From: Arbacia lixula
Taxonomy: Eukaryota; Echinodermata; Echinoidea; Arbacioida; Arbaciidae
Reading direction: 5' to 3'
NCBI GenBank assembly: GCA_963669155.1
Contig: OZ022593.1
Coordinates: forward strand, 15,229,758 to 15,293,757
DNA length: 64,000 nucleotides
Shown here: positions 9,801 to 59,100 of the stretch, in pieces
How the letters are laid out: every line of letters begins with the position of its first letter
Numbering within the stretch: position 1 is the first letter of the stretch
The notes under the pieces: model-generated
Databases searched by the model: none
What the model was told of the DNA's origin: nothing
The model's input: the letters and a program-made list of their open reading frames with translations, nothing else
Translations under genes and position numbers: made by a program

Positions 9801-12800
9801 AGTATCAATCACATCATTTTTAATCAGCTATTTATAAGGTTTCGCTTGTGTGATGCATATGGAAGCATCGATCCACCTTCTTTTTGTTATGTCCCTCATC
9901 AGTTGATCTACGATGCATTTTGGTTTACAGTATTTGTTTGTGTCATCTATGTCCATGTTACTCTGTATTATTGTGTTATTTGAACACAGAGCCTTCAGTG
10001 AGAACAGTGCCAAGCTCACTGATGGGGCTACCCTGTTTATAAAAGACTTAATAAATAACTAAATAAATAAATACATTTATCACTATGCCGTCTTTTAAAG
10101 AATTGCGAATGATCTGAATTGATCTGAAGTCCAATCCCCTATCTCTAAAGGGAAGAGTTACGATTGATATCAATCACAATTATTTATTACACAGTAATCT
10201 GATGTTCGGAGAAGCCCTCTGCAGAATTATCAAGTTTGATGATCATTCAGTTCAGACTAATTGTAGTTATTATCACTCGACCTTCAGTATACCTTCAAAG
10301 GTTGGCCCAATAAGGGATTAATGAAAACAAGCAAACAAAGTTCATTACTATAACAACTCTCCCTCCTCCATATCGTCCTTGAGGCCCACCTCAGACCACG
10401 CGACCCGATCCGTCGTTCGATTCTGCGACCGGCTGAATCGCGGGACACGGTCACTTGGATTTGAGCGAGAGGATGACGTCACATATAGAGCCGTGGACCC
10501 TTACCACTGCAGAATCGAGGCAAAAATCGTTTCGCTGCGTTGGCCTTTAATGGACCTTATCCGACACACTTTGCCTACTGCATTGAAGAAGATTACATTA
10601 ATTACCTTAATTTACAGGATAATTCGCTGCCAACCCTTCCGGATGAAATACTATATGAGAGTTGCCTTTTCCGTTATTTGACTCTGTTCAATCAGTCTAA
10701 TAGCATGAGAACGATAATGTCATTATCACTATAGGAGGTGATTGTCCACGCTTGACTTCAAACGAATCAAGGGGACTTGATTGCATCCACCTCTCCCGCA
10801 AGAGAGGAAATGAGAATAGACCAGCACCAGTTAGAGAAAGTCGACAGTTACAAGTACTTGGGCCAAACCTTGAAAATGAAGGATAATACAAGAGAAGAAG
10901 TATGGACAAGGATTAAAGGAGGGTGGAGATGTTTAAATATTTACAGGGAACTTTTAACTGACATGAAAATACCACTCACAATGAGGGGAGGGATATCTGA
11001 CCAGTGCAATTTATCAACAGTGACATATGGAGCAGAAACCTGGTCTACAACTAAAGAAATGGAACATACATTGAGAATAGCACAAAGAACTATGAAAAGA
11101 AGAATGCTCAATTTAAGAATACATGTACTTGACAAAGTGAAACACACTGACATACGGCAGAAAACGAAGGTCAAAGATATCATAGTAAAAATTAAAGAGA
11201 TGAAATGGAGATGGGATGGACACTTATGTAGTGCACAATACAACAGACGGACCAAAAAACACATATAATGGCAACCAAAACAAGCAAGCAAAGAAGGGGT
11301 CAACAAAAGAGAAGGTGGAGAGACGAAATATCATCATACACACAGCAACCTGGGAAAGAATGACAGCAAATAGAAGAGAATGGAAAATGATTGAGGAGGG
11401 CTTCATCCAACAATGGTTGAACAATGAATGCCTGATGATGATGACTTCTCCTGCAGATCGCGGACAATTACTTTTTGTTCGGTTACCATGGATAATCCGC
11501 GCCAATACAGATGTGTATGTTGTCACGGTTATTATCATGCAGGTTCGTGGTTCTAAGGTTGCAGGTTGCGTTCATGCGACCATCGCCAGAATCATGATTT
11601 GAATCACAATAGCGACAGAATGAGCGTCCAGACTTCAGACGACCTTCTCTCCAATCTACTCGGATTCGGGCCGATCCAGTGCGCATCGCAGGGCGCAGTT
11701 TGACCCAGCTTTTACGCGCTCGTTTTCCGTTTTCTACGTGGGCTGCTTGACTAGCACCAGAAATAGGCCGACACAATGACATCGTAGAATCATGATTCAA
11801 AATACGGTTGCGTTCAAGCGAACTTTTTCGAACACGATTCTGCAGTAAACGCGTTTCCAAACCCCCCATTTCCCGCGTTTCAAGTCTGCGTTTTGAATCA
11901 CGTTTATATTCAAATTCGGCTGAACGCAATCGTGATTCAGCAGAAACGCGTTTTAAATCATAATTCTAATCATGATTCTAGGGCAAAAAAAAAAGTGACG
12001 CATGACGGCAACCTAAATAACATTAGGTACGTTTATGCTCAATTAGCGAAGGTAGAATCAGCGTTTCGAAACGCTGATTGTAAACGCCGTTTACGGGGGG
12101 TACTGTTTATATGCTCAATTTGCGAAGGCAGCATCAGCGTTTTGAAATGCGGATTGAAAACGCTCATCCAAAACACCATTTACGGGGGTATTGTTACTAT
12201 TGAGATGATGTCATTTAAACACATATACATCACTCTAATAAGCGTTTATGCTTCCCCGTTAAACGTGATTAGTCAGAATCGGCGATCGTAAACGCTCCTT
12301 TTTGTGCGTTTTGAAACGACGTTTTAAAATAGCATTTATATCAAAATGAGCACGAACGCAGCCGCGTTTTGAATTAAACGCGTATCAAAACGCTCATTTG
12401 GGCCTCAAAAGTTGAGCAGAAACGCATCCATTGATCAGGGAGGTGTTATGAAGGAGTAGAAACTCGAGCATAATACATTCAAACATCTGTATGGTTTCTA
12501 AAGCGTGCTAATGAGTGTCAAAAGAATTCCATAATCATGACAATGCTTTGATGTTCCATGTGCCGAGCCGACATTTAGCTGATGTCAACCTGAAAAGAAA
12601 TTTCTTTAATTTCCCATTTGTCTGTAGTCGTTTTGTTTTTGACAAATTCGTTTGCAAACTATAAGGAAGTTAACGGCGGATAATGACAGATCCTAATACT
12701 CTGCGTTTGTTTCGAAAAGTATTGAGGAATCATTAAAAATCGGACATATAAGCTATATGTATTACTTACAAAATTGACCAATTTCTTCAGTTTCCGACAA

Positions 12801-35059: not shown

Positions 35060-38000
35060 AATGTATGTTAATATGTCAGCCTGGTACACTGGCAACTTTT
35101 GTCCCACACCACTCGATGCATCAAGTTACGTGAGTATAGTAGACAATGACACAGATATGTTTGTTATAAAATGGAAGCATTTTATTAGAAGATATATTGC
35201 TTACATCGATTGGCCAGATTAAAACTGCATAGAATACATATCTCGCTCTTTATACTCAATGATGATCATTTTTTTCTGCAGTACACATAGTCTAGGATAA
35301 ATAAATATGTGCTAGAGCATGTCATACATGTCTTTGATTTTATGTCACTCATACAATTATTTTCACCACCTTGTTAGTCACAGAGCATGTTAAATTCGTA
35401 CATATGTGTGCAATCTTTAATCCCATCGGATGTTCCATATCTGTGACTCCAACCCTCCCCCAACCCCCCAAAAAAATATATAAAAATGCTTATGCATACC
35501 CAGTACATAAACCTTCAGTCAATCTTAAATTTTCATCCAGACTTAGGATAAATAAATGACTGTTATGACATCCCCATACAGTCCAAAAATTATGTGTATT
35601 CACAGATATACTATGCACTCATTTAATTTGTTACAAATTTTCTTTTTTGCACCTGACCAGCGTGATTTGCTACGTCCTTGAAGCAGTCTAGAATAAATCT
35701 ACTTGGATATCGAAGGAAATGCTAAGAGTTGCCACAAATATATATATCAAGATCGTACATGAATCTTACATTTTAGATATTGAACTATGAAAATATCTGC
35801 AAACGAATATTTCTATATTAATTTTCATTACAACTTGTCGTCCTCATCCATATTACAATTAGAAGCAAAGCTACAAATAATTAAATGTTAACTTGTCCCT
35901 CAATGATTTTGCTGAGTTGCACACTATTCTTTAACATCAGAGAGGCCTGTACTGAATCCCACATAAATTAACAATACAAAATGTTAAAAGTACAACATAA
36001 ATACACCTGTTGTTACTGTTCCATCATAGTCAATATTTGGGCTCCATCCTTATAATTTATGTGAAAATACACAAAATTACAATTATGCTTGTACACGAAA
36101 GAGGACGTTATAAGTACTGAGTTCTTGATACAATTTACAAGGTTACAATAATACTATGACTATAATACTTTTATGTACAAATTGTCAGGGTTACATAATA
36201 AATCTTTCATCCGAGGCAAGTTCTTGATAGAAGCCAAGTTTTTAAGAGTAAAAAATATTGATATAAAGCACATTATGTCACATAAACACAAATGAAAGAA
36301 GTTAAGGCTAAAATGCTAGAATGTACATAATAACAACTTTGATCTATTTGCAAAGAATATATATGATAGTACATGTGCAGGCATTTTTATTTTGCATAAT
36401 ATATCTTTTCAGACATGACATAAATAGCAAAAGTTAAATTGAAAGCTTTTTCTTTATACTCACAACCATAAATAAAATCATAAACATTTTTTCCCCTCTG
36501 TTCGTAGCCATGATTAGAGGCCGAAATAAGAACAACAAACAATTTCACCACAAATACAATACAGGGAAAGATGGCAACCATTGCTAATGAACCTCCAATA
36601 AAAAAAGCAAAGCATGATACGTTGAATTTAAGATTTTTTTGTTTGTTTTGAACAATAAAGTTTGACCATGAATACCTCGCATAATTAAAGATATTTAATG
36701 TGAGGTAATGGATTTAGATGGCATGATATCTCATCACAAGTGAAGTTTTCCTCTTGAATAGGTAATGTTACATTTGAATAGCAAATATTTTGTTTTGACT
36801 GTACCAAAGATTATTACAGAATGCAGAAATAGAATTATTGACTTAACATGTCTTTTTTGTTTGCAATTACACATCGAGTAACTTCCGGTATTAGTTATAT
36901 CAATATCCAATATGCAAAAATAAGACTCTTTTGAACATGTCAAAATAAACACATACCATAAATAATTTACGACGGATATGAATTGCTGACTGCTAATGTC
37001 GATTTCAACAAGATTTAAATATCATTTCTCGTCTATACAGCCACAGACATATGTATAATTCAGAGATATTGTCGTTTATATTGGCTCTGCATAACAAATA
37101 ATTTACAACAACAATGCATTTCTAGACCGTTGGTGTCATTCTACATGATTGAAATAGTAACGATATTTGTCATCTATGGAGCCATGGTTGCAATCATGGT
37201 CACATGCATAATTTAAAGCAATCATTGATTTGATAGGTTTTGACTTCAGTTACCTCACATGATAACATCTATATTTCCCGACTACATTCTATTATGCATG
37301 TCATTGTCACTCTCTATGTGATTCAGGTAATCGTCGTCATTCATCTACAGATACACATGTATACATTACATATTCATCATATCTGATGGGTTTTGCCCAT
37401 AAATACATAGCATAGTTCAAATAATTTACTGAAACAAAAGTGTATGCGTGCTTCCACACATAGTCTTTAAGTGCAGACTCAACCTAATCTACAAAGCTAT
37501 AAATAAATGTACATCGCAGAACGAAGAACCAGTAGGCAATATTTCAATATTTCATAGTATATGTAATATGATGTCATATATGAGAGTAGTCTACAATTAC
37601 AGACTCAATCGTGATTTATTTTTAAGTAGGTGTCTGTTAGATTAGACTAGCGTCTGACTAACTATCCGGCATGTGCAAACACATGAGAGTTTAGTCTTTG
37701 CAGATTCAGACTCTTTGATTCATTGACTGACTGAATGAGCATTAGTCTCTGCAGTTTCATCCTCATCGATTTATCGACTGACTGACTGATAAGGGTTTGT
37801 TCCTGCAGACTACTAGAGAGGGCACCTTCGCAGCTTTGATCGGAGCTCACATACCAGTATGTTAGTCTGTACACAAGTAGCAGCAAGAGAGTGCCCTGTG
37901 TGTAACATGATGAAGCCATTACAAAAGGTTTATATTAGCCTTACACCCAGGCTGTTGGGAATTTCGATTCCAAAAATTCAGCAATAAACGGATCCGGCTG

Positions 38001-38203
38001 CATTAGTCTAATCACCGTCTAATTCTTCTCCAGCTGGTGAGACAGACCAGGAGAAGAGTAAAATTAGTCTTGTCATACCAGACCCAAATGTATAGTTGTG
38101 GTAGTGAAGATTAAATATGTCAAAGAGCATGAAAGCCAGGCTAGGTCTATGTGTGATAAAATAACACAAAATGAAAAAAAAAGAAGCTACAAGTCATGGC
38201 CAA
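35060..38203 (-). other. probable 3' UTR and 3' flank of the cadherin gene
   Basis: AT-rich sequence downstream of the cadherin stop on the minus strand, with no other coding signal. Minus-strand AATAAA hexamers occur at 37620-37615, 36391-36386 and 35186-35181, and any could end the transcript. At about 37675-37815 a roughly 57-bp unit (TTAGTCTYTGCAG...TTCATTGACTGACTGA) is repeated two to three times. Confidence 0.4.
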
Positions 38204-38479
38204 CTAGAGAGCACTCTCTTCATCGTTATACCCATAATTCTTGTAACTTCCTCCCGACTCCGTTCCTGACGATCGTCCCACATCAACACCCGCCACTCCA
38301 GAGGATATCGTCGACGTCATTCTCTTGACCCGACTTTCTTCTACCATGTCGACGTCGTCATCGTCGTCATCGTCCATGTTGACGTTGAATGCTCCAGTGC
38401 GGCTGGCGCTGTCATCTGACTGGGTGGAGAGGGTGTGAGAAGCCACCGAGTGATTCTCTCCACCGCTGTCTCGCAACAC
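38204..38479 (-). CDS. cadherin exon: C-terminus with PDZ-ligand pattern
   Basis: Acceptor AAATGCAG|GTGTTGC, 91 codons, stop TAG at 38206-38204. It contains an acidic run (MDDDDDDDVDMVEE) and ends NYGYNDEESAL. The final S-x-L fits a class I PDZ ligand. Confidence 0.92.
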   Translation of the reverse strand: MLRDSGGENHSVASHTLSTQSDDSASRTGAFNVNMDDDDDDDVDMVEESRVKRMTSTISSGVAGVDVGRSSGTESGGSYKNYGYNDEESAL

Positions 38480-41400
38480 CTGCATTTAGATCATCACAAC
38501 AAATACATGTTTAGTTTTATAAGGCTTTTTGATCTTCTTTTACTTGACCCGATTTGTGCCTTTGTCATCATGGTTTGTTTAAATTCATGCAATGTCTCTT
38601 TATGCTATTTTAAAATCTTTGACATATGACTTGTTCAGCTCTTTGAGTACTATTTAGCACACAAAGGCTTTGTGCATAATTATTATATCATGGTTTGTTT
38701 TAAATTCTTGCCATACATTATTGTCACTGTTTGAACTACTTTACACAGGCCCTAATGAGTTTGTAATTATAGTGAATCCTTTGCACACTGAACATTATTG
38801 TTCCACTGAACTAGAAAGTGAAGCTCTGTGGATGTCTTGTTTAAGGTATGGCATACCAGAACAATGACGATTCCATACAGTCCATTATTTCAAACCAATG
38901 GAGCAATCATGATTTTAAGAAAAATCACAACTTTCATGTAACATGTCTGATTTGTCTCAAACTTTCAACAATCTGGTTTTCTGATTTTTATTTAATTCAA
39001 TTTATTTTCAGGGTTCCATTCTCCTTTAACCAGAATATATGAAGGGATGAAAGAGAACTCACCTGGTAGGTGTATTGTCTGCCCTGCGGACTTGACGAAC
39101 TGCTTTGTGAGCTGTGGTCATCTTGGATTGCCAATTTGGACTCGATGCCGCCTAGCATGTGATCTGGATTTTAAAAAGGACATGATGAAATAAAAAGGAC
39201 ATGATGAAATAAACATTATAATCACAGATAATAAAATCTAACATCACACCATTAAAATTACAATTCAATTTCTGATTCCAATGCACTATCATGATTTTAT
39301 TCTATGGTTTTCAAGATGATATACATATATTTTACCATTACAAGAAACATTTATTTTTAGAACTTCATCTTCATCTTCATCTTTACTTCAGTTTTGATTG
39401 TGCTATGAAAAACATTTTTAAACATTTTTTGGTATTCACTTACATGTGTATGACATCTCATCTTACAAACATAATGTTTCTGTTCGTATTTTGAGACATG
39501 AAGTAAATAATTATCACTTTCTGTGTCAACTTAAATTAAATCAATTGTGGAAATATGCAGTCAAATAAGAAACTAAGTAATTTGCATTGAACTAAAGTGT
39601 GAACTATGTCATATATTTATGAGGTCTTTTCCAGAGGGAAGGACATGCACTGAATAAATATCTTTACACTGCTGCATTTATCAATCAATATCACAAACTG
39701 CTTTATTGTTGAAATAATGTTTACATCAAAACATAAACAAACATAATAAGAAATCCTGATTCATCTGCAAGAAAACATTTAATCTGTGTGAGAAATTCAA
39801 ATTGCAAGGAAAAAATCAATTAAAAGGCAAAGCAATATCATTAATATATCACTCTATGAGAAAAGTGTTCATGATCTATGTCGCAATTTCAAACAAAAAT
39901 AGCATTATGTGCTGCAATGAATCACTCTGTGCGCTGAAAGTAGATACATGGAAATATAAGTATCAAACAACTTGAAGAAATTACGTTAAATAACAAATGA
40001 TTGATTTTTTCAAAGGTGAGAAAACACAAATACAATATCACACCTGCAAAAAGGGACAGACAGGGAAAATGTAAAAGTGTCAATAATTGGAAGAAAAATA
40101 ATTGGAAGAGAAAAGTGCATGTGTGTATGGGGGACACATCAACTTCAAAAAGAGAAACAAATTGAAGTGTGAACCATTGTACAGTCTGCTTAGTGTCCAC
40201 AAACAATTAGAACAGTGATCATAATGTTAATCAACATATCGCACTCTCTCGACAACATGAGAAAAAAACAATAAATATAAGCAAAAGTAAGACAAACATA
40301 AGAGAAAATATGCATGAGTCAGTAGTAAGAAGGAAAAAAGGAGAAAGTGAGGAGGAACACTTCAAAAAGAGAAGGAAATTGAAGTGCAAATTGGTGTAGA
40401 TTCTGATGTGCCCGCAAACGTTGTGTGCTGAATAAAATCAACAGACTGCTCCATTTGTGTTGCCATTTTTTGGTGTTTGGGGGCATTGGGGTTACAATCT
40501 GAACTGATACCTTCCAAAGATGAGGTGGAATGGTCACCAAATTTCATCTGGATTTCGCCAGATTCAAACATCACTATCTGGAGCTTGGCTTGGAAATTTA
40601 CAGAGAAAATGAACACGTTATCAAACAATCCACAAAACATGACAACATATCGCTTGTTACAGATAGTATGTTGCTGCACATACAATTCTTATCATTACAA
40701 CTCCTTGAAATTCAAAGTCACTATAAAATATAAAGTATATTTTACATTACTACGATCTAGAAAGATAATGTAACATCAATGAAAGACTTACAGAACATTA
40801 CAGTTTCAAACAAATCATTAACAAGTCCACACATTAATCGAAATGAATACACAAAATGGAAATTATTATGCATTTAAACCACATAACAGGCACATGAATT
40901 TAAAGATTTAATCCACACATTATGCATGAGAAAAACATTATGCATGAGAAAAAGACAATTATACAAAGTCAGACATTGGTATTTCATTAATTCATTATAT
41001 TTTGCTTACAATTACTTGATGTCACAAGTTGAAATGTTTATGAGGGGCAACTTTACTATGTCTTTAATTTATTACAATCATTTCAAAACAACTCCATACC
41101 TCTTTGATTCAGTTTGGCATCTTTGTCTTGGTCAGTGAGTTGGTGCTTTTTTCTTGACAAAATGATATCACCTGATTCCATCAAAGATATTTCTCCTACA
41201 ATCCGTGTTTGCATTAAAAAGAAAGAACATTTTGCACTGGTAAGGCAGGACATTAATACATTCATCAATGTTCTTTAATTGTTGTTGATTCAATGATTGC
41301 AAATCACAAACAAATACAAAATTCATGACAAACATTCTGAAATATGAAAAAAACATTGAATTACCATCTTAACTAAAAACTGCATTACATAAATGTAAAA

Positions 41401-44120
41401 CAAAAGAAATTACCATGGATATTTCCTTGCACAAGATGTATTAAATCAAATCAAAATGATGATAGGAGATCATTGAACAATATCTTTCTAGCAGTGTGTA
41501 TCACATTGTTCTTTTGAGCAGCAATTCAAATGGAACAATGAGAGCTGCAGTAATTCACCCATCCTAATTTGCATATCCAACGATAACCTAGTTTCTAGCT
41601 TGTGGAATACATGGACATAGCCGAGACTGTTAACAACTCTGTCTGGTAACACAGACTAAGCCCTATTGCCATTTGCTGGCCGCTCTCACATTTAACCCTT
41701 CGTGTTTCAGATACACGGCTGCTCTATGGGATTTGTGTGGATTACTTGAGTAAAGGTCCATCAAAGACACATAAGGAGTTAAGTCCTTCTGTACCAGATA
41801 AACTGCTGCTCTATGGGATTTGTGTGTATTACTTGAGTAAAGGACCATCAAAGACACATAAGGAGTTAAGTCCTTCTGTGTCAGATAAACTGCTGCTCTA
41901 TGGGATTTGTGTATATTACTTGTGGAAAAAACACATGTGGCACACAAAGAGTTAAGGCGAGTTGGGAAAGTGTGTAGTCTTTGTTACCAGACAGAGTAGT
42001 TAACAGACTCTGTTGATTCCATGCACTCTACAGCAATCAAGCTAAGCTAATCCAACGCAGATGGAAAAAATGATTCTACCTTTAGTGCTCAACGAGCTGT
42101 TTGCTGACGATTGTGACTTGTTGGCCAGTGAAAATCTGACATCACCCGACTCAAAGAAGCTAATCTCTCCTTGGGATATGAAGAGAGTTACAGGGAGAGA
42201 GCAGTAATACAAAATAGATTACAAATTGGACTATAGTAGGTAATCTCAAACTTCCCCGATCAGGGAAAATATGTGTGAATTATGAGATCAGATCTAGGAC
42301 CTCAGATACCCATAAATCATTTTGTGCATTTATACCACCTAGAAGTGAATGTGCTCAAAGTCATGATTGCTATAGTTCAATAGGATTGAAGTACTCATAG
42401 TTTGCTTTTCACACTGCAAATATCCTGCGGACTTAGAGAAAATACCAATAATTTTGAAAAAGCACCTACTAAATTACAGGTATTTTTCAGCGAGGATATT
42501 ACTAGTACTTTTGTTTCACTCAGGCAAATTTACGGGTATTTTCAGATCGGTGGAGAGTGAACGATCAGAAAATACCAAAGCCCCGTTGCATAAAGCTTAC
42601 CATTAATGCTAACTCTATCATCAATGGCAACTACCATGGTAACATTGCTTGACAGCCGATGAAATAAAAGGTTTCCAAAGAAGTTGTCATTGGTAGCAAA
42701 GGTATCAGCAATGGTAAGTTTTTTTGCAACAGGGTCCAGGTGCTTTTTTGGGGGGATTGGGAAGGTGTGAAATCACCAAGTAGAATAATAATAGTTAGGA
42801 TATAAGATGGTAAACATCTGAAATTACCACAAAGAATAACCAGTCTCCAGGTAGAGACTCTTAAAACAAATGTCTACAAGGAAAGACTAGTGTGTGACCT
42901 GCCAGTTGTGTGTCAGTAGAGGTATGTAGATAATGTGTGATAAGCAAGTCTCTGCAGTTTAATTCAATTTCATTAAATCTATTCACAGCCATGATCTACC
43001 TAAGAAATACATCAATATTGACCTGATATGACGCTTCTTGAAACAGTATATAAATCAACATTTTGAAAATAACTTCATAGTGCTATGAGGCCAAAATATG
43101 ACTTAAGACTAAATGTTCAAATATCAAACAGTTGGTTACAAATGTTTGATCATACATCCACACATACAAACATGATCATCAACTATGTACAAGAGAAAGT
43201 GTATGGGAAGCCAGTGAAACCCTACTTGCGTAAACATGATTTTCTATCAACGATGTATAGGGAAGTGCATACAAGATAATGTTTGTATTTTTTTAAAAAA
43301 ATCTTATCATGATACTAATAACAAATTAGATTCATAATGCAAAAATATCATCAAAGTACATTTAGGTTCACACTTCAAAAAAGTGTTGTGACTTGTTGGA
43401 AATGAACAAAAGATTCAAGGCTATTGACGTCAAGGTTATGCTTACAAAAATGACAATACTATTGAATATACAACAAGAATGTTTTTTTTCATGACAAAAG
43501 AGAAATGTTGCACCAAAAGCTCTCTTCATACAAAAGTACATGTGAGAGACAGATAATATTGATGGGATATGAAGCAACGTGAGGCCAGGTTTGCGTGATC
43601 GAATAACAAAAGTATTTTTTTTACAGCGTAAGGACAAAGACTTCGAACTGAAAGGCTTCACACACTATCAGATTTGTGTGATGTGAAATGGAGGCAGGGA
43701 GAGGGAATGGTGAATTAATTGAATAGGCCTTGTGTGGTAACAGTGAGCACATGACTTTGTGCATGCTCCGTATCAAATTGTATGCAATTAGCCTTTTTCT
43801 CTCTCTATCAGTCTCCCTCCCTCTCATTCAGTAACTCTTTCCTCTCTCTCTCTCTCTCTTCCTATCCACAACTTTTTTTTCTGAGCTCTTCCAATTTGTT
43901 CCCATTCTCTTGAAGTCTTTCTCTCTACCCTTAATTCTCTCTCTCTGATCTCTTTTCTTTATTTATTTCATCTTTCTCCCTTCATCTCTTCCACTGTATC
44001 AGAACTCTACCCCATCTTTAAATCTCTCCTCTCTACTCCTTTCTCTCACATCCTTCTATCTCCTTTCATCTCCGTTTCTCGTTCTCTTTCCCCTTTATCA
44101 AAACACTATCCTCCTCCCTT

Positions 44121-44152
<32 letters not shown>

Positions 44153-47100
44153 ATATCCACACAATATAATTACATCAATGGCAATTTTAAAGTTCAATAC
44201 AATGTCACACGCTTACAAAAAACAGTGCACAAAATTGCAGAAAGGTTACACTTTGAGACCTTTTGGGGGTTTCGACGTCTCACTGAAACTGTCCACTGAT
44301 GACCGTTGAGGGGGTATGTCTGCTTTACTGGCTAAGCCGACTCGTACCTCACCATTGTCTGAAATGGTGATTTCTCCTTTTGTGTGTAGGCATGCAAGGA
44401 GTAGAATGACAGAGGGGAAATACATTTTGAAAATCAGTTATGCTTAAATCATGGCAACCACATCCATGTTTATCTATGAATGTCTGTCTTGCCTACACTG
44501 CTGTACATTCACATCTAAATAAGATTACCAAATTCATATTGATATTAAATCATTCCCCGACATAAATTATGAATTGAATTGATCTGAATCAGCACGTCCA
44601 ATCCCCAATCTCTAATGCACTGAATTATGATTGATATCAGTCGCAAATGAAGTTGCGAGTACTTGCAACTCTTTATACAACAGGCCCTAAACAACTAAAA
44701 TCAATTGTTTAGCAAATGTGGTATGTACTTAATGCAATAGGTGAGGACATGCTCCCAAATGTATTACAAGTTATCAAGATGAACTTATATACGTAGTATA
44801 TAACATACAACTATCGCATCTGAGGTATGTCCATAGGGTAGTAACACATATTATTTGTGAACATTTAAGTAAAAACAATACTTGTACTCTGTATATTAAA
44901 AAGATATGTTTGAGATACATACATAATTTCACATGATGGAAACCATTAAACTTACTTTAGACCTGAACAATGCTCTTGCAAAAAAGACTCAATATGTTTA
45001 TTTATATTGTCATTGCACCATTTGTGGTCAATTAAAATCACAAATTCACAAAGAATATGTGGAGTAAATAACAAAAATAGCTGAAAAAGTTTCCCAAACA
45101 CTATATTTTGAAATACTCCAATTACATAAAATCTAAGAAACTGCTGAAATTTGTTTCTGTAAAGCACACACTTTAATATACCTGTGGGACTACATGGTCC
45201 ACTGGAACCGTGGCTTTCATTGTGACAGCTTAAAGTGACATCACCACTCCCCATCAATTTGATTTCACCTAGAAAATCAACAGAAATGTCACACAAATAG
45301 AACTGGTTTGCTTGTTTACCTCCAAAAAAACCTGGACAATTCCACAATTTTGCTTACAATCATGCATCATGAGTAATCAGCAGTATTTTTCTGCCATAGA
45401 TTTCTATGTCTTAGGAAATGAAAGATAAATTCCACATATTCCTGAAATGCAAATAAAACAGCAGCACATAGGCTTCCTTTAATAACTATGAAACAGCACT
45501 AGTTACTCACAATAAATCATCAATAATTATTCCAATTATTCCATGTAAAAAAATGACTTTTCCTCACACAGTATAATGCAAGATGTAGTTTATTTAATGA
45601 CATTGGCCTTGAAACATGTCCCCTGGAAAATTTCCTTAAAGAAGAAACTAATTTGAAGGTTTACGTGGAGTACTGAAAATGTGGATTCTAATGACAATGT
45701 GTAGAAGGCTCAAAATAATTAAAGGCATTATGGCACCAGAAATATACAAACTTCTAATTTTTATTGGGCAGAATTGATCAAATAGATTAGCCTAATGTGT
45801 ACATGTGAAGTGATTTGTGCAAGTGCTTTGAGTGAGCATGCAAACTGAACAGGAAGACTACCTGTGGGACTGGCTGACGTATAGGATGAACTTGGTCGTG
45901 GTCTGCTAGCAGGTAGAGAGAATCTGACGTCCCCTCCACTCATCAAGATAATCTGACCTTTAATTCAATGTGTGGATAATAGTGAATGATATATTTTCGG
46001 ACCTTTAATTCAATGTGTGGATAATAGTGAATGAGATATTTTTTGACCTTTAATTCAATGTGTGGATAATAATTAACTTTTTGTGCTTTCACTTCTGAAC
46101 CACGGTGTGCCGCATTGTTTTGGGAGTGCGGGGATTTCACACAAGGGTTCAATATCAGGGAAAAGAATAAGATTGATTGGAAAAATTCACAGTGAGATTG
46201 AGGAGACAGAGGGACACATATAACATATATGACGCTACATACATTAAAATACATTTTGACGGAGAGAAAGATTGGCACTGATCAAAAGATGGAGGAGACA
46301 GATCTTTGAGAGAAGAGTATCTGAAAGAATGAACGAGACAAATATAAAATTGGACATGCAAACAAGGATATGTAGGAATAAAAAAAAGGAGCTGAAGTTA
46401 GCAAACTAAAATAAGTTAAACTCCTAAAACCTAGCATTGCTTGCCGTTCAAGTTGAAACAAAAAGTCCATGCAAAAGTCAATTTTCTCTAAAAAGGCAGC
46501 AAGACTGCGATGGTAAAAAGTGCAGGGTCTCTTGCTGTACGAACAATAGGATGAACACAATCGCTGCACACACAATCTGCTTAAATTTGCATGCATAATT
46601 GACTTGCGCGTATTTGTGCTGACATGGGAAGAGAACCCATCACTAAATGTGCAAAATGGCGAACGGAATGCACAAAGAGTTCATGAGAAATTTTCTGACG
46701 TTTAAGTCAATGTTTGAATGATAGTAAAATAGATATTTTCTGAACTTTTATTTACTTGTTGGATAATCATAAATGAGCAATTTTCTGGCCCTTAATTAAA
46801 TGCTTGGGTAATAAGGAATGGGCTATTTTCTGACCATTTATTTAATGTTTAGATAATGATAAATTAGCAATTTTCATTCAATGTTTGGAAAATAATGAAA
46901 AACATATATAGCTTTAATGGCATATTTTGTCAAAATGATCTGACCCAATTCAATGTAGGATAATAATGGGATAGATATTTTTTGTGACACAATGAACAGT
47001 CAAGTAACCTGTTATAGATTGGTACAATCAATAATAACAGAAAGATTGGAAAAACATACTGGCAGAAGTTTAGAGTAGAATCAGATAAGAATTGCTTTAA

Positions 47101-50100
47101 AAAAAAAATGAAACAAGGACGTCATGTTATGGTTGAGCATTAAGCACGACTCTGCATGCATTGCGGAGCACAAATTTCATTTTTTGTAAAAACAGCTTTG
47201 TTACCTTAAGCTTTATTCAGTGTATAGGAAAGTAAGCCACCATGTTCATTTCATTATCATAACTGTGTCATTACACAGAGGGCCTGAGAGGTGTTTAACA
47301 TGAAGGATGCTATGCATATTGAGTTTGCCTATGACATTGAACACAGGTGTTGCTAATTTAAGGAGTGCTCAGATTTCAAGCAACCACAACTTCTTAATTG
47401 CTCGTCCAACTTTGCTCAAACTTCCACCGATCTGTTTCTTGAAGTTTCTGGCAGAAGAACATAGTTCAACAAAAAGTAGGAATGCAAAAGATTGAATATC
47501 TACTTAACAACAAATCAGATGACCTATTTAAAGAATGAAGGACCTTTATCTATAAATCTGTGATAAACTCCTGATATTTGCAGCGTGTACCTTTTGCAGG
47601 AGACGTGTTGGCAACTTCCTTGTCTCTCTTTGACAGAGAGAATTTGACATCGCCACCACCCGTTACCATGATTTCTCCTTCGTAGGGGAAGGGAGGATGC
47701 AAAATGGGATATGAATGGTGAAGGAAAATGTGTCTATCAAATCATATCAGCGGGGAATCCTTCCCGACAGTCTTCATCCAGACAATGAACACATGCATCA
47801 AATGCAAACTATTTTTCATCTGTCTTATGTTTCACTCAATTTATCCACTTGGTCTGAATATAAAAAAAATCAATGATTACTGATGAATCAAAGCGATAGA
47901 TTTTGTGCAAGTTCATATTGCTATTTCAACAAATGTAAAAAGATTCTTCATCATTTAACTAAATTCATTATTTCATCATTAGAAAAGAAAAATTGGTGAA
48001 GTGCAGTACATCCTAAAACTGGATATGAACCATATCACTCCCACAGGTAATGCTGCAATTGATACAGGACTGTGGCTGTTTGGTACTGATAGCTTTAAAA
48101 CCACATTTCAGTGATGAAATGTACCTTTGTTTCTTGTAAAAGATTAGGATATAAATAAGTGCAGTGCATCTTATAATTTCCTGCTAAAGTGCTCTGTACC
48201 TGTGGAGTTTGGGCTACTAGCAGCCAGCGGCGAGGCTGGCAGAGAGAATCTGATGTCTCCTGAGCTGCACAGAGTGATCTCCCCTTGAACGAGAAATCAA
48301 TATCAATGGTAATAAGACGATCAGGCTATCAAGTCATATTTTCTGCTGCAATTCATGTGATTTACAATTTTTGTTTTAATATTCAAATCTAATGCAACAA
48401 TATGTTCATCATGCATTTTTTTGTTAACCATGTAATTTCTGTTTTGATGCTTACATATCTGAAAATTTTTCACTATTTCATTAATTTGTATGAGCCTAAG
48501 GCATTGAAATAATATATTGTAAACATAACTTATGATTCTATACCTTTTCTTGACAATTTAATGACATTATTTAAAATAATACAGTACAATAATATGTTGA
48601 TTGTATCATATCCTACATTTGAAATAAAAGCTGAGAAAATCTGAGCTCTTGGCAACTAAGGGTTGTGACCCTGAAAATCATCAGTATCTACATGTATATC
48701 TAACTACACTTTATCTCTGCAAACTTTGTAAATCACAATACCATCATGTATTGCTAAGTTACCTGCAGGACTGGACAAATTTGCTGATTTCCCTCGCTGG
48801 TTTGAGATGATTGTTGGTTCTCCAGCTGGCGATACAGTTATCTCTCCTTTGATTTGCATTATTCCAAATGAAAGCATAAAGGCAGCGACCAAAACCAATG
48901 TTTGTTAGAGTTATCGATATATAACTGTTTAACATAGCGTTGCTCACAAACAAATCCTGTGTCAAACCTAATTTTATTAAGCTTTAAGATGCCCAAATGC
49001 ACTGCAACAACCTATCTAAACTGATATCAAACAAGTGAAAAGCATTTAATGTAAATCCAATGACATTAACAGCAGACACCTCACTCAAATCTTAAAAAAA
49101 AAGGTTAGCAGTAGTAGGGGAGAATTTTTATTTTTAAAATTCAAGTATCAATCATTTATTCAGATTTAAGCTGAAACAAAGGTGCTTACATTTATAAACA
49201 CTGTATAATATGTAAAACAAATGATTCATGTCTACACCTTTCATTTACATTTCCATTCATGAGGCATTTCAGTAATGATCTGTCACACATTTTCACAAAA
49301 AATGGAAAGCAATATCCTGCAAGATGTATTTAGACCCTTGAGAAACATCCATTCCTGACTCTTCAAACAACATGTATCTCTCTATTCTATCAAAAATAAA
49401 ACAAACTGTAGTACGATAAACCATACAAAACAGTCCTTTTATATCCAGGCAGTGTTAGGAAAGAGTACATCGATAGACAAAGGAGAAAATGTGAAGTGGT
49501 GCATTTCACTCGGTGCGTTTTATACCAGAGTTTGACACTTCAATGGCTGAAGTTGTCACGCTGCGTTCAACTATTATATCACCACCAGATGAAAGAGTGA
49601 TTTCTCCTTTAATCCATTGGCATGCATGCAAATCAAAAGCAAGAATAATGACATAAAATAATAGTCAATGTTTATCACAATGAAGTTAACATGTTGACTT
49701 CTCTTGCTTAATGATGAGAATGTTTTTACAAAGAAAAGATAATAAGTAATTAATACCTGTTGACCACAGCAGAATACTCCTTTGGTCACATGAACACAAA
49801 AAAATCAATAAACAGTAAAGGGTTAAAAAAAAGTCCCTGTAGCAATGATACATTAAAAGAAACAATGAAATCAATATTGTAGAAAAGTCTGAGTCTTTTC
49901 CGCTTGTTTATGACTGTTGGTATGGCTGAAATCAAAATGGAGCTATGGTATCAACATTATACAACATAAAAGAGGATTCAGAGAGTCTGTATCCAGAATT
50001 GAGATCCTATCTCTCCTCCATGAGCATATCTGAAAGAAAAGCGATGAAAGTGGTAAAACAAAAAATCGGAAGGGTAGATTTTTCTTCTTTATAACGGCGT

Positions 50101-53100
50101 ATCTTAATCACAGAAGATTGGTGTGGGAATCTTATTCCTCAACAGCAACACCTGTCCTTTAGAGAAGACCTGTAAAGCAAAAATGATTAACTCTCTCACT
50201 CCCAATGGCATGGAGATGTGTAGGAATTTTAATGGGTTTCTCAGATTGGTGAGGGCTAGTGAGGTTTAAGAGACTAAGATTCTTACCGGAGTCCAGCTCA
50301 GGAATAGGCACCATGTCCCCGCCCGCGTACACCTTGCTGGTCACCCTCCTGGCCGAGTAGGTCTTAACCGATGTCTTGGAATCCCCCTTATCAAATTCCT
50401 CCTCCTTATACTGCTCCTCCAGCGACGACTCCCCGGTAAACTTGGACATGGGATCCTGGTACTGCTTGGCGATAGAGCTCCCTCGCTTGTTGTTGCGCTC
50501 CAGGGAGTCCTGGCCACGGTAGCTGCTGCGTGTGTTCGTGGAGCGGGAGGAGATGGACTCCTCCTCTGTGATGGGGGTGAGCTCCGCCTCGTAGGCCAGC
50601 TGCTCCCGGTAGGCGGCTGCGGCCATCTCCGCCTCCTGCTCGGCCTGAGAGACAGGCATGTCTTGGAGCATCTCACGGATCTCCATTGCCGTCTGCTCCG
50701 TGAGCAGCTTCCGGTGGCGGAGCGAGTTCGGGTTCTCGTGCGTAATTGTGGTGGTACGCGTCGTTGTGTTGTACTGCGAGCCGCCGCCGCGGTGGTCGAT
50801 TTCGTCGCGGGCTGGCGGTGGGGCGGACTTCGTCATCGTCGTGGTGACAGTGGAGTAATGCTCCTCCTGCATTCCACCGCCTCCTCCTCCTCTTCCTCCC
50901 CAGGGACGGTCCATCCGAGCGGAGACGGACCCATCCATGTGGACGTCGTTCCGCAGGGACCGCGTCCCACCGTTAAGGTTCGAGGTGTCCACTCGCTTGA
51001 CCGTTGTGACTGATCCATTGGCAAAACCATTGCCGATACGGTGACCCCCGTTGGACATCTTGCTTTTGACTGAGCCATCGCTGACGAGCGACGTCATGAT
51101 GACTGCATCCTCCGCTATCTCTAGTGGTATCTCATCAGACAGGAAGTTCATTGTGGCCTCCTGCGTGAAAGGCAATCATAAAAAAATCTTACAGGGTACC
51201 ACTTGGGTATGAATAAATTCTAGGTCCCTTTCTTTATTGATTAATCGTTTGATAGCTAAATGACTCACAATGGATATAAATTGCAAGTCTCTACGTCAGA
51301 GAAAGACTTACAGAAATCGCAACTTTTTCTAAAGTAAGGCCCCAAGTCGGTTGTACACTGATATCTTTAGAAGTCCTCTTCACAAGTTAACAATTCGTTT
51401 TATTTTAGGCAACAACATAAGTTCAATATATTTGTTCACTGACACACACAAGTCCTGTTAGTGCATTTGGCAAAGAAACAAAACACAGTTTTCTGAAGAG
51501 GTGATGTGATGACTATCATTTCATCAAAAAGGCAATATAACTTTGTTCCTTGGATAACAAAAATAAACTTGACTCTGATATGTGACATCCAGAAAATAGA
51601 TCCTACAATAAAATAAAAATAACTAATATAGAATACTCAATATGAAATTGCCACTCAAAGGTGATATCAGTTATTCTAACTTGTTTGATACAATATTGAC
51701 ATAATTCATGCATTTTCATTGCATGTTATACAAGTATGAAAATCAGTTGAATAAAGATGGATATCTTAAGCACAACTGCATTATATAATCATTATTTTAG
51801 CTGAAAAAATACATGTAAGTACGTTAAAGTAAATTTCTCAAAATAGCGTTCAACACATCGCAATAACCATGATTCCTACCTGTGCTTCATAATCCTTGAC
51901 AGTTCCTCCTAGCAACGAGATGCTATCTGGCCAGTCATCTGGTTGGCTGGTGTCAGCATCCAGCCACAGAGGATTGGATCTGGAATACAGTCAGGGAGGC
52001 AATATAACAATTCAATTATCAGTATGAATTCTTTGGATTAACAATGGTAGTTTCTTCATAAACATTTGGTTTTTTTCTCTTTGTCTACTTAAATGTCTTT
52101 TCATGTTCTTTTAGTTTTCTTGTTTACTTCTTCTTCTTCTCTCTTCCATCCTTTTCTTCCTCTTCTTGTTCATATATACTTCCTCCTTCCTCTTTTTCTG
52201 CAAAGCCTCCTTCTCTTCTTCTCTGCTCCAACTATTCTACTTCTCATTTGTTTTTGTGTTGTTTGTCTTCTTCCCCTGTCTTCTTTTTGTACTCCCCCAT
52301 CTTTCTCCTTCATCATCATTTCAATAGCTTTAACCAATGTTACACAAGATACCTCTAAATCCATAACAATCCAATAGAGGTACAATGACACCTGGATATA
52401 AAGGCCGCTCAGGGGAGACAAGGAATGTGGTCTTTACAAGTAGTCTTTATGTACAGGTTATTTTAATACATGTTTCAACAAGGAACACTGATCTAGGGAT
52501 ACAACCAATGTGGTCCTTATAGGCAAGTGGTCTTTCTTTACAAAAGGTTGCTACAGCAGGTGTCACCGTAACTAGACAGTGGACCCAAAGAGTTAACCTG
52601 ATCTTTACTGAGCCTCCGTTTAGGGGGGGGGGGGGGGGGGGCTGGCAATTCTCCACTCAGATACAGACCAGCATGACTCTTGCATAATCTGCTGCACAGA
52701 CAATAGACAAGAGGCTATGAATAAGCTTCAAAATCATTATGGGGGTACAATTAAGCCATAACCCGGTAAAATATTGACATCCTATCTGGACAAGGGTTCA
52801 CGAGGCCTGAAAATCTAATCGTGGCCCCAAAGTGAACATTGCATATTTTCTCACCCCTGATAGCTGGCACTGACAGCCTTCTCCTTAGCCAAGAGATCAT
52901 CGTGGGCCTTCCCAAGTGTCACTCCTCCTCCTTGCATCTTACGCAACAATCTGAAAATTAAAAAAAAAAACATCTTAAGGATATGCGTATTCAGTTTCAA
53001 TATAATCTTTGATTTACTGTAACTCGCTGTAGTAATAAGATTGATATATCAATCTGTATAAGCAAAGGTAAATAAGACTGTGGAACCTAAACCTGCATGT

Positions 53101-56100
53101 ACTCCTTGCCAGGCAGTGACACTATCAACCAGGCTAATCACTTAGCTTATGATGATTTTAAAATGATCTATTTTTTGTACCATTCAGAATGCTTTCTTAC
53201 AGAACATATCTAGTATCAAATGTTCTTTGAATGTTTCCATGGTGAGAGCGTACAAATAAATAATTTTCCATTGTGATTGATTACAATTTTGGTAATACCC
53301 CATACAAGTTTCCTTGATTGGGTGAAGGACAAATAGATTTGAATTCAATTGAATTGAAATACTATTTAAGAGTAGAACTTTTGGTGAAAAATATGCAGAT
53401 GAGCGAGCTGAAATCTAATCAAGTAGAAAACAAAAGGAATATACGAAGCAATAGTTTGTTTTAGCTCACCGTCTGCGGAGACAGCACAGGATGATGCAGA
53501 AAATGAGAGCGCCAAGGAACAGAAGGATGCCAAATGCCAGGAGGGCCGCTTCCAGTATCCCTAAACCTCCGATACCACCTCCTCCAAACAAGGGCTAAGG
53601 GGATTGAATAGGTAGTGTTGAGACTGGTTTTAGCACTGAATTTAGAACTCTAATAGTTATTGAAATGGGGTCACTTCCAGTATAGCCAACCTACAAATAT
53701 ATCAGCTCCTCTAAACAAGTGCTAGGAGGAGGAACATAGTATCAAGACTGATATTAGCACTGAATTTAGAGTTCCAGTACTTATTTTCATTTTGCTTCTT
53801 TGGGGCACTTTCAATGTACCTAAATCTCCATGGGTAAGAAGAGTAATGTTGGGATTGATATTTACAATGAATTCAAGAGTCCTGAAATGGTAAATCTATG
53901 ATGTTTGTATCATAGTAATTACAAAATCTTAAATACCAAATGAATCGAAATTTGAATTCATTACTTTCACATTTTATAATCTACTTACATAGACCTCCAC
54001 CACATCTAGATCGTCCAGTAGTACCTCAATACTGGCCGCATGCTGATCAATTAGCCTGAAAAAAAAAATGAATAAGATGAAAAAATATTAATGCACACGA
54101 TTATTTGAGTATAAACATACATGCAGTTTACAAGACACCTACATTATGGAATAAATAGCCACTAGATATAAGGAAGGCCCCATAAGTAGAAAACTTTTAA
54201 ATCAAGACTACACTACACTTGTTCTTGTAGTATGTATACCACATTTCTGAGCTCTTGCAGCATAGTAGAATATGTATCCATATAGTTATTGCACTTAACA
54301 AGTGAATATATTATTATTACTATAGGAGACTGAAGCTTCCTGAACATGCACAGTTACATCCTGAACTGACCTGTCATATCATGGGAGCCCCTTCATAGAC
54401 ATGCAAAAAGGGGAGACCCAGTACAGGTGACTTTACAAGAATTGTACCTGCTATGCACAGCAGGACTATGCATTTGATAAATAAAAATAATAATAATATT
54501 CAATTCTTAGAGATGCATAATACCATTCAAATAGTCTCTATGCGTGTGAAAGTAAAAATTGATTATGTGCGAATTTGAAAATAACTAATACTGTAATTAT
54601 CAAACAGATGCGTCTTTAGTCTTGATTTGAATTGATCGAAGTCTGTCAATGATCTAATGCCTTGGGGGAGGTTATTCCATAATTTGGGTGCCGTATTTGC
54701 AAAAGCTCTATCACCGAATGTCTTAGATTTTACACGAATTTCAGAGAGAAGATTTTTTGATTGAGAACGAAGATTACGAGTAGGCTGGTATGGTTTGATG
54801 AGTTCAGTAAGATAGACAGGAGCATTTCCACATAAGCATTTGAATACAAGAGTGAGGATTTTAAACTGAACACGAGCCCTTATCATGCTTATCGGTAGCC
54901 AGTGGAGACTACATAGGATCGGAGTTATATGTTCAAATTTCCTTTTTCGCGTTTCGAGCCTTGCCGCTGAATTCTGTACACATTGGAGCTTATTTAGTTG
55001 AGTCTCAGAGATTCCCAGAAACAGACCATTATTGAAATCTCAGTAACAAAAAATGACAACTTACGCTGTGACAACATCTGCATCCAGCACCTCTCCTGTA
55101 GTTGCGTTGACGACATGAATCAACACTTCTGTTTGGTCAACAACAATATCTCCATTGTCATCACGATGCGATGTGATATCATCTATGTAGACAATCCCAC
55201 CCGTGATGTTCTGCAATACTCTATAGAGGGACATCAATGGAGAGCAGTAAAAGTTCAATATTTGTACATTCAAATACAAACAGTCATCCATCTCATATGC
55301 ACTAGAGGTGTATGTAATATAAAGACGTATTCAAAAACAATTAATCCAACACTAAAGAGTACATGTATATACTTCTTGTAATTATCCTACACACTAAGAT
55401 TTATGAAATATTTCATCATTGATTGTTTTTGATGACATCAAATCATGAAGTTGACTGTGGATACATTTTTTGTTGAGAATTCAGACATAATTAAAGGATC
55501 CAGGGAAATAAACAGCCTTTCTATATTTGAACTTAACAATTAAATTTAACAAGTTCTCTATTAATCAAGTTCAAGTTTCATAACACAAACTTGATACAAA
55601 CACGTAATCCCAAGAGTATGAAACAGACTGTGAAATATGTTTTTTTTTAAAAATAAATCACATCGTAAATAGGATGAAACTACTGATCCACTTAATATAG
55701 AGAAATATTTGTATGTTGTCTCAAACAAAATTTTGTTTTTATTCACTATTTTAGACAAAACAAATAAATCATCTTATACTTGTCCATTAAGAATAACAAA
55801 ATTCTTACTCAATCAAGATGTCTCGGTTGTCCCTGACAACCTGGATTCCAGCGTCGACAACCACGACCACACGCTGGTTATTGTTCAAGACACAAAGCTG
55901 CATACCAGGAAAAAAAGATAAAGGAAATATGTACAGGAATATAAAAATGATTATGTACTGTCATTGAAGATTATTAACAAGTACATCATTGCCATGATTC
56001 TTATAAATTTGGATCAGTACCAATATCAACATGATAATAATACCATCATCATCACCATCATCACCATCATCACCACCAACACCACCACCATCATCACCAC

Positions 56101-59100
56101 CACCATCATCACCACCAACACCATCACCATCATATCACCACCAACACCACCACCATCACCGTCATCACCACCATCAACACCACCACCATCATCACCACCA
56201 CCATCACCGCCATCACCACCATCATCACCACCACCACCATCATCACCACCACCACCATCATCACCACCACCACCATCATCACCACCACCACCATCAATAC
56301 CAACACCACCACCATCACCGTCATCACCACCATCAACACCACCACCATCATCACCACCACCATCACCGCCATCACCACCATCATCACCACCACCACCATC
56401 ATCACCACCACCACCATCATCACCACCACCACCATCATCACCACCACCACCATCATCACCACCACCACCATCATCACCACTACCACCACTATCTTCACCC
56501 CAACCCCATGTCACTCACCCTGATGGTGATAACGTTGCTCTCGCCTGTGGCCTCATCCCTAGCCAACACCACCAGATCAAAGTACCCGCCCAGGTACGAC
56601 TGACTCAGCTCCTGATTGGTCGTCACCTGCCCTGTTACCGGGTTAACCAAGAAGGCGGTGCTTGCATCCAGCCGCTCTCCATCCTGGTTGACAAATACGG
56701 CTGCCTGCAGGGTGTAGGTAATGTCCAAGCTGTTACCGGTGCTGCCGGTACTGGTACCAAAGAGGGAGATAGACACGGCCTGCTGCCCAATCCGGATGTC
56801 AAATGGAATGCCTGCATTGGTGAAAGGAATAGTAGCATTATCATTATTTATGATTATTTATTTGATCATAAATGGAGAAAGAAATAATATCATTATTCAA
56901 TTCGTATAATCTATTTGACAATAAATGGTGAAAGGAATTATATCATTATCATTATTTATTTGATCATAAAAATAGCATCACATACAACATTGGAACAAAG
57001 GAAAGCATGTTATAACAAAACAAAGGACACAATACAATAGAATACAAATGACAAAATGAAAGACAGAAATGGCAGAGTGTGGGGGTCAGGGTCCACAAAT
57101 GCAAAAAGTAATTCACAGTTGTTCTCAGGTTATGTGAACCCAAATATGACATATGAGGGCGATTTCACCTGGACATTTGAGGCAAAATGACACATTTATG
57201 CACAATGGTGGTTCCACTTTATACTCTTAAGAATCTCTTTGGTTAAAAACTGTGGAGATATAATCAAAATTAAAGGAAAACCAGATAAAGAAAACAAGCA
57301 AAACTTACAAGCAGATACGACTGTTAACGGCTCATTTAGTGTGATTCGGACTTCCTTCAGCGAGAAATTATCTAAGACGTTGTACGGTCCAGTGCCATTG
57401 TAGGTCGGACTGTTGGTTGCTAGCACAAGAACCGTGTGGGTGCCTACAATATCGGAGCTTGCGGTTGAGTTGATTGTTATCTTTCCTGTCGTAGAGTTGA
57501 TTATGAAGAGACCAGCACCTCCGCTGCTTTCTGTAATTGACCATTCAAGACATGATTAAACGTTTACATGCCACTTTTTGATTATTTCACAATCATTCCA
57601 CGCAAATTGCATAGAGCAGCGTTTTATCTGGAACACAAAGGATTAAAATAGGAATATGACTTTAAACTAACATACTGTAATCATAATTCTTGCAAACATA
57701 GGCTAGTCTCTTTTTCTTCTCTCAAGATTGCTGAAGGGGAGAATGAATAGGCCATGTGTCTAAACAATATTGAGGTTACAGCTTTGCACTAGGAAGAAAA
57801 TGACTTTATTAACAGGTCGGAACTTAGGTCACACATAGGCCAAAATCATTTAAATCAAGCAAAACATGTACTACTTACTATGTACTGGAAGAGAACAGAC
57901 AGAATAAAGCAATATAAGTGAAGTTACATTCTGTTTTATTGTTTATTGTTTAGAAAGTAAGCACAAATATTTCAGTTTCACATATTTCAAATAGAAACAA
58001 AGATAAGGAAAATGGATATTGCCTAAACAGAGCTAGTTTCCTTTCTCTTTCATGATTAATAATATTTTTTTCTCAAGGAGCCTACTAATAACCAGGATCT
58101 AATGCTCATTTTATAAAAACATAAAATGGCAATATACATTTTCACTTTGTTCACCCGTTGATTCATAGATTATGGCATTTCCATTCCCATAGGCTAATGA
58201 AGGAATATACTTGCCAACAATATGATAGTAGATATCTGCGTAGGGTCCAGTATCCAAGTCAATAGCTGGGGTGATGTAGCCAAGCACGTCACTAATGTTG
58301 GTGCTTCCAAATATGTTGAGCAGCATCAGGTCAGGAATGGTGTTGCCCTGGTTACCAGACAAAGTTGAGAGGCCATTGTTAATAGTTACACCCAAGTTCA
58401 AAGATATACATGTATGGAGAGAAAGAGAGAGGAGGAGATAATGCGAAAAAGAATGAGAAAGGGATAATGTGAGAAAGAATGAGAGTAAGAGAAAGAAAAA
58501 AAGGGGGGGGTAGAAATGAGGGGAGAAAAATGAGAGAGGGAGAGAGACAGACAGACAGAGAGAGAGGGGGAGATAGAAAAATAGAGAAAGAGCAAAAGAG
58601 AGAGAGAGAGAGAGCAAGAGAGAGATGGAGAGATAAAGACAAAAAAGAAGGATAGAGAAGAGGATAAATGAATACATCACATGTCAAAGAAATAGAAACT
58701 TTTCTCAAATGTGATCTCTCTCTGATTGTACTCACATCCGGTCTTTCAAAGAAGGGGTCGTTATCATTGGCATCCAGTACTCTGATCACAAAGAGCTGCT
58801 TGGTTGATAGAGCCGGGCTGCCTCGGTCAGTAGCGACAATTGTTAGCTGGAAACAAAGAGAGGAAAAGTTTGTCATTATTATTTGCAAGATCTCATAAGA
58901 AACAATAAGGGGAAACAGTGAAAATTACTTGAGTCATTTCCAAGAACGAGATAGAAAGAAACAACAGAGACGAAGAATATGATCTGCTGGTGTCATAACA
59001 TTTCAACTCGCCTTCGTACTTTGCAACGCCCCCCCCCCTCAATTAATAAATGTTTTTAGTGGAAATTGAACCAATACTGTAATGATGGCATCACACATAG

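Follow-up and report, generated by a model that had tools for sequence, protein, structure and literature searches.

The 64,000-nucleotide stretch of the sea urchin Arbacia lixula analyzed here (the window; assembly GCA_963669155.1, contig OZ022593.1, positions 15,229,758 to 15,293,757) carries on its minus strand a gene that, judged by best hits and record names, is the echinoid orthologue of cadherin-23 (CDH23). The part encoding the cytoplasmic tail contains ten small duplicated exons (M1–M10), each of which can be retained or skipped with no effect on the reading frame. It is probable that a variable subset of these cassettes is spliced in, and the valency and the reach of cadherin anchoring may be tuned in this way.

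The module exons lie between a large cytoplasmic exon and a 101-bp exon (Table 1). All ten are preceded by AG and followed by GT, have a length divisible by three, and are bounded by phase 1 junctions on both sides. A first-pass annotation, made from the letters of the window, had described ten such minus-strand exons of 78–117 bp, with an upstream exon ending in phase 1 and a downstream exon (39063–39163) starting in phase 1, and had proposed that any order-preserving subset stays in frame. Each of the exons is found where it was placed, the flanks fit the frame, and in all 1,024 ordered subsets the frame stays open until one shared stop codon (scripted joining of the upstream exon, the subset, the 101-bp exon and the terminal exon). 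Counted from the 874-bp exon onward, the tail ranges from 416 to 716 residues across these subsets. The last base of every module is G, to which the following exon adds two bases; no junction makes a stop, because the resulting codon is always that of Gly, Ala or Asp. The motif assigned to the modules in the same annotation requires a small correction. M5 begins with GQI and M10 with AKLQI instead of GEI, and SP-T or SP-A reaches the donor, or falls one residue short of it, in four of the ten modules (M2, M4, M5 and M6).

Table 1. Exons of the CDH23 tail region in the window, in the order of transcription.
Feature	Positions	Strand	Length (bp)	Remarks
Transmembrane-segment exon	53470..53594	-		95% identical block to L. 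pictus P0001
Juxtamembrane exon with SNPLWLDAD	51880..51979	-		
Large cytoplasmic exon, upstream of array	50287..51160	-	874	donor CCG/gtaaga, ends in phase 1, donor score 10.2
Module exon M1	49526..49606	-	81	L. pictus counterpart L1, by position
Module exon M2	48763..48846	-	84	L. pictus counterpart L2
Module exon M3	48200..48283	-	84	L. pictus counterpart L3
Module exon M4	47591..47677	-	87	L. pictus counterpart L4
Module exon M5	45862..45957	-	96	without L. pictus counterpart; acceptor at edge of 45-bp tandem repeat
Module exon M6	45182..45268	-	87	L. pictus counterpart L5
Module exon M7	44260..44376	-	117	L. pictus counterpart L6, by position
Module exon M8	42080..42169	-	90	L. pictus counterpart L8
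Module exon M9	41100..41195	-	96	L. pictus counterpart L9
Module exon M10	40511..40588	-	78	most divergent; L. pictus counterpart L10
Exon after array	39063..39163	-	101	starts in phase 1, ends in phase 0; block 77% identical to P0001
Terminal coding exon	38204..38479	-		ends -ESAL and stop

Tandem repeats are present within the array. The M5 acceptor and the first bases of this exon lie at the end of a 45-bp tandem repeat (45955–46071); the acceptor stretch TTGAATTAAAG recurs 45 bp and 90 bp upstream, and there are degenerate copies at 46683–46875. The intron between M8 and M9 contains an 87-bp tandem repeat (41708–41922, 2.5 copies).

The cadherin cytoplasmic tail proposed in the first-pass annotation is borne out, and the gene can be further named. 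When an approximate stitched model was used as the query and its cytoplasmic part was scored, three matches were obtained among the 2,543 candidates sharing most words, all named cadherin-23 or cadherin-23-like: Lytechinus pictus cadherin-23-like (P0001), Strongylocentrotus purpuratus cadherin-23 isoform X4 (P0002) and Diadema antillarum cadherin-23-like (P0003). The membrane-flanking region of the S. purpuratus protein retrieves the same three urchins, two sea stars (P0004 and P0005, 46–47% identity) and fish CDH23 (P0006, 34% identity over 72% of the region). The locus is covered by 48 of the 56 chained tblastn blocks of P0001, through the large cytoplasmic exon inclusive. This L. pictus orthologue has the expected long run of cadherin repeats (24 Pfam Cadherin stretches), and for a membrane-adjacent domain of PCDH15/CDH23 type, ahead of a single transmembrane segment, the match in it is sub-threshold (PCDH15_12th, 22.3 bits with a cut-off of 27). 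The juxtamembrane NPxWLD block is present as SNPLWLDAD in the A. lixula gene and as ANPVWLDPF in P0006. At the C-terminus, the sequence resembles a PDZ ligand: -ESAL here, -ESRL in the two sea stars and -ITEL in P0006. An ending of the -ESAL type fits the class I PDZ ligand pattern. On the strength of the best hits and of the shared NPxWLD block and PDZ-ligand-like C-terminus, the gene is read as a CDH23 orthologue.

The module exons are conserved coding sequence; they resemble one another in sequence, leave the frame unchanged and are kept in other urchins. L. pictus P0001 contains ten modules in a row (L1–L10), and when the modules of the two species are paired with their order preserved, the best solution matches nine of the ten on each side, leaving M5 and L7 over; the loss of frame and motif in a related species, which would have spoken against the array, did not occur. 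This pairing scores 611, above every one of 2,000 shuffles (mean 419, maximum 560.5). Except for M1 and M7, which are placed by order, the paired modules are reciprocal best hits (seven of nine pairs). The mean score of the nine pairs is 67.9, versus 29.9 between paralogues of the window, and identity over these pairs is 65% in the core of 15–17 residues (89/137) and 44% in the spacer (54/122). In an alignment of 26 modules from four species, in which M10 and L10 were brought into register by hand, the I at position 3 and the G at position 9 are invariant. The five modules of S. purpuratus isoform X3 (P0010) have their best hits, in order, in L1–L5 of L. pictus and pair in order with M1, M2, M3, M4 and M6, the first scoring slightly better with M2 than with M1. 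The divergence between urchin lineages is given as about 179 million years in PMC11310861.

The array appears to be singular. A profile built from the 16 modules of the other urchins only was run over the six frames of 123 kb, and its eight best matches are eight of the ten window exons (15.2–27.8 bits), the next match reaching 5.7 bits. M2 (4.9 bits) and M10 (4.7 bits) fall within the background of this non-window profile in the 123 kb. No eleventh module rises above background with the profiles in the six frames of this region. In the whole genome (606,990,701 bases, 590 contigs) the search returned ten matches at E≤10 among the best candidates scored, exactly the ten exons, and thus no second array in the 607 Mb. 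Neither the tails of the fish CDH23 and the sea star proteins nor the upstream exon contain a match to the module profile above 3 bits. The sea star records P0004 and P0005 contain no module; P0005, however, represents a cluster of 16 members by a single isoform, which leaves absence from sea stars unproven. No Pfam family is matched by the five-module protein P0010 at E≤1, and no structured RNA is found at Rfam gathering scores at 38000–52000 of the window. Among solved structures, the strongest of three matches at E≤10 has an E of 0.48, and two are OspA chains (E 1.1 and 4.9); these were taken as chance.

In respect to its structure, a lone module models as a β-hairpin followed by a looser spacer rich in Ser, Thr and Pro. 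M5, modelled with its nine paralogues, forms a hairpin with strands at residues 2–4 and 10–12, and the mean pLDDT (predicted local distance difference test) is 92 for residues 1–10, 82 for residues 11–20 and 67 for residues 21–30, in agreement with the β-hairpin unit suggested earlier from the sequence pattern. Hydrophobic residues dominate positions 3, 5, 11 and 13, and less so position 15, a pattern that would give the hairpin one greasy face. The Ser/Thr/Pro content of the spacers is 43% in the window and 46% in L. pictus.

The splice sites of the cassettes are weak. They were compared with those at 54 junctions of the same gene inferred from urchin proteins, of which 48 were kept at a score margin of at least 9 and 6 were dropped. 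The donors of the cassettes have G at position +5 in 1 of 10 cases versus 42 of 48 elsewhere in the gene (46 of 54 when all junctions are counted). An AAG acceptor is found in 8 of 10 cassettes versus 2 of 48 (2 of 54 for all junctions). The median donor score is 3.9 for the cassettes and 7.9 elsewhere (p 0.0001), and the median acceptor score 2.8 and 7.0, respectively (p 0.006). The donor before the array scores 10.2, and the exon after it has an about average acceptor (7.7) and a donor of 11.4. Within 120 nt upstream of M1, M4, M6 and M7, TGCATG, an RBFOX-type motif, occurs 5 times versus 0.9 expected (nominal p 0.0026, uncorrected for 16 motifs and two sides), and the hexamer GATTTG stands upstream of five of the ten modules (p 3e-5, uncorrected for the full set of hexamers); no claim is made for either enrichment.

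The annotated models of the orthologous genes differ in the number of modules, which supports the proposed cassette use at the level of gene models. Ten modules are present in L. pictus P0001, five in S. purpuratus X3 and one in D. antillarum P0003. S. purpuratus X5 (P0008) and the newer X4 have none, and both join the flanking exons directly; X3 and X5 are predicted isoforms of the same locus, LOC100889964. From this annotation we infer that inclusion varies between transcripts, and further isoforms may be hidden inside each 90% cluster of records. In two of the four proteins returned by the search that gave X3 and X5, P0007 and P0009, the upstream exon is read on into its intron, and these records are uninformative on the modules. 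At the start of the exon after the array (acceptor side at 39163), the S. purpuratus counterparts in X4 and X5 are set apart by a single Ala, which suggests a tandem (NAGNAG) acceptor.

On this reading, splicing would include a variable, order-preserving subset of modules. Past its conserved juxtamembrane part and up to the PDZ-type ligand at the C-terminus, the tail would acquire a variable number of short β-hairpins on flexible Ser/Thr/Pro-rich spacers. By analogy with exon 68 of mammalian CDH23, discussed below, each hairpin may serve as a weak site of docking or self-association. The number of modules would then set the valency and the reach of the tail-to-tail or tail-to-scaffold assembly, and these in turn the firmness with which the cadherin is anchored. 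Such tuning of anchoring by valency and length would be the role of the array.

Several observations weigh against this reading. The evidence for isoforms consists of gene models and not of RNA reads, the five-module X3 is a fragment ending just after its fifth module, and the sole L. pictus record holds all ten modules, as constitutive inclusion would give. The weakness of the splice sites is not uniform: the donor of M2 and the acceptors of M4, M6 and M8 are near or above the constitutive median, and pyrimidine content by itself is not significantly lower (p 0.07). Moreover, because the cassettes arose from one another by duplication, their weak sites cannot be counted as ten independent observations, and the p values overstate independence. 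As to the kept order, M1 and M7 score better with modules other than their in-order partners, and M5 has no partner. The structure prediction of joined modules, called for in the first-pass annotation, yields for the five-module fragment modelled whole a mean pLDDT of 45; nothing in it supports the stacking of modules suggested there, and stacking is not excluded by it either. Finally, exon 68 offers a functional analogy only, with no detected homology.

A rival explanation is a constitutive long tail, in which all ten modules are normally included as a repeat region and the models with fewer modules reflect annotation gaps. It would be consistent with the ten modules of the only L. pictus record and with the conservation of the modules as protein. 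The inclusion of all ten in every sample had been named in advance as an outcome that would speak against combinatorial use, and the models with 0, 1 and 5 modules argue the other way: in S. purpuratus X4 and X5 the flanking exons are joined straight to each other, and the Diadema model carries a single module. The cassette splice sites of the A. lixula gene are, in addition, weak. All-ten inclusion is for these reasons judged unlikely, though it is the most serious competitor of variable splicing.

Control of length only, with the modules as optional spacers that alter the reach of the PDZ ligand and a hairpin core that binds nothing, agrees with the Ser/Thr/Pro-rich spacers and with a long tail of variable length. 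Pure length would not, however, require a core more conserved than the spacer, as found here, and this explanation is considered improbable. Still less can be said for the view that the exons are decoys, or in decay, and seldom used: weak splice sites and evidence of use at the level of gene models rather than reads would fit, but ten open frames, a core identity of 65% to another urchin and the kept order make such decay very improbable. Dscam-like mutually exclusive splicing, with one module per transcript, would match the single module of the Diadema model but is hardly credible, being already contradicted by models in which several modules occur together (five for S. purpuratus X3, ten for L. 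pictus), and frame-neutral exons leave zero or many modules unpunished.

Other elements of the window are located outside the array. A long GAT/GGT-rich microsatellite (56030–56495) begins shortly after the donor of the exon ending at 56519. Between the CDH23 exon ending at 55065 and that starting at 54055, the intron contains a minus-strand open frame (54563–55039) that by eye resembles the end of a LINE (long interspersed nuclear element) reverse transcriptase. A plus-strand open frame at 10756–11268 resembles, also by eye, a fragment of a retrotransposon reverse transcriptase.

Among known systems, the closest is the cytoplasmic tail of mammalian CDH23. Mouse CDH23 has one alternatively spliced cytoplasmic exon, exon 68, of 105 bp (PMC7397384). 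A review (PMC10018040) presents the role of its peptide in the tail as disputed: it is reported to inhibit the binding of harmonin, while according to another group peptide 68 binds either the N-terminal domain of harmonin or another copy of itself, building large complexes, and would thus promote large assemblies. As in the urchin array, exon 68 is an in-frame cassette of the cytoplasmic tail in an orthologous gene, near the C-terminal exon and either included or skipped. The encoded peptide (35 residues) is similar in size to the urchin modules (26–39 residues), and these occupy a comparable stretch, between the membrane and the PDZ ligand. The two differ in that exon 68 is single, whereas the urchin has ten exons, and in position, exon 68 being itself the penultimate exon (PMC3441156), whereas the urchin modules are contained in the intron that precedes the penultimate exon. 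The module core profile has no match above 3 bits in P0006, the one vertebrate record compared, which presumably includes the exon 68 peptide.

The cytoplasmic end of PCDH15, also a tip-link cadherin, is likewise splice-variable (PMC10018040), with four classes of cytoplasmic domain, in contrast to the duplicated small cassettes of the urchin. Dscam (PMC4835542, PMC5465998) resembles the urchin array in that arrays of alternative exons multiply the isoforms of an adhesion protein, but splicing of fly Dscam1 is mutually exclusive, whereas several urchin modules occur together. Titin (PEVK exons) and CD44 (variant exons) likewise have series of small in-frame exons of which a variable number is spliced in, but these proteins and their motifs are unrelated to the urchin modules. 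The exon clusters of Dscam, for their part, are mainly extracellular.

Tentatively, and with a good deal less confidence than in variable inclusion itself, the array can be viewed as ten optional hairpin stickers whose ordered subsets, up to 1,024, would set the valency of a self-assembling or harmonin-binding tail, so that splicing would encode how strongly a tip-link-type cadherin is anchored, as an independent ten-fold elaboration of exon 68 largely kept in order between urchin lineages. The orthologous urchin tail with 0, 1, 5 and 10 modules provides a natural series that would allow a direct test of valency, and the array is a clear-cut instance of a graded tail built by exon duplication, its copies kept in order between lineages. 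Searches of open-licence papers turned up no cadherin tail with an array of ten exons. The first-pass annotation, which knew of no cadherin with such an array, stands as far as the ten exons are concerned, but a single tail cassette had already been described in CDH23: control of the CDH23 tail by a cassette is already known, and what is new in the urchin is the ten-exon array.

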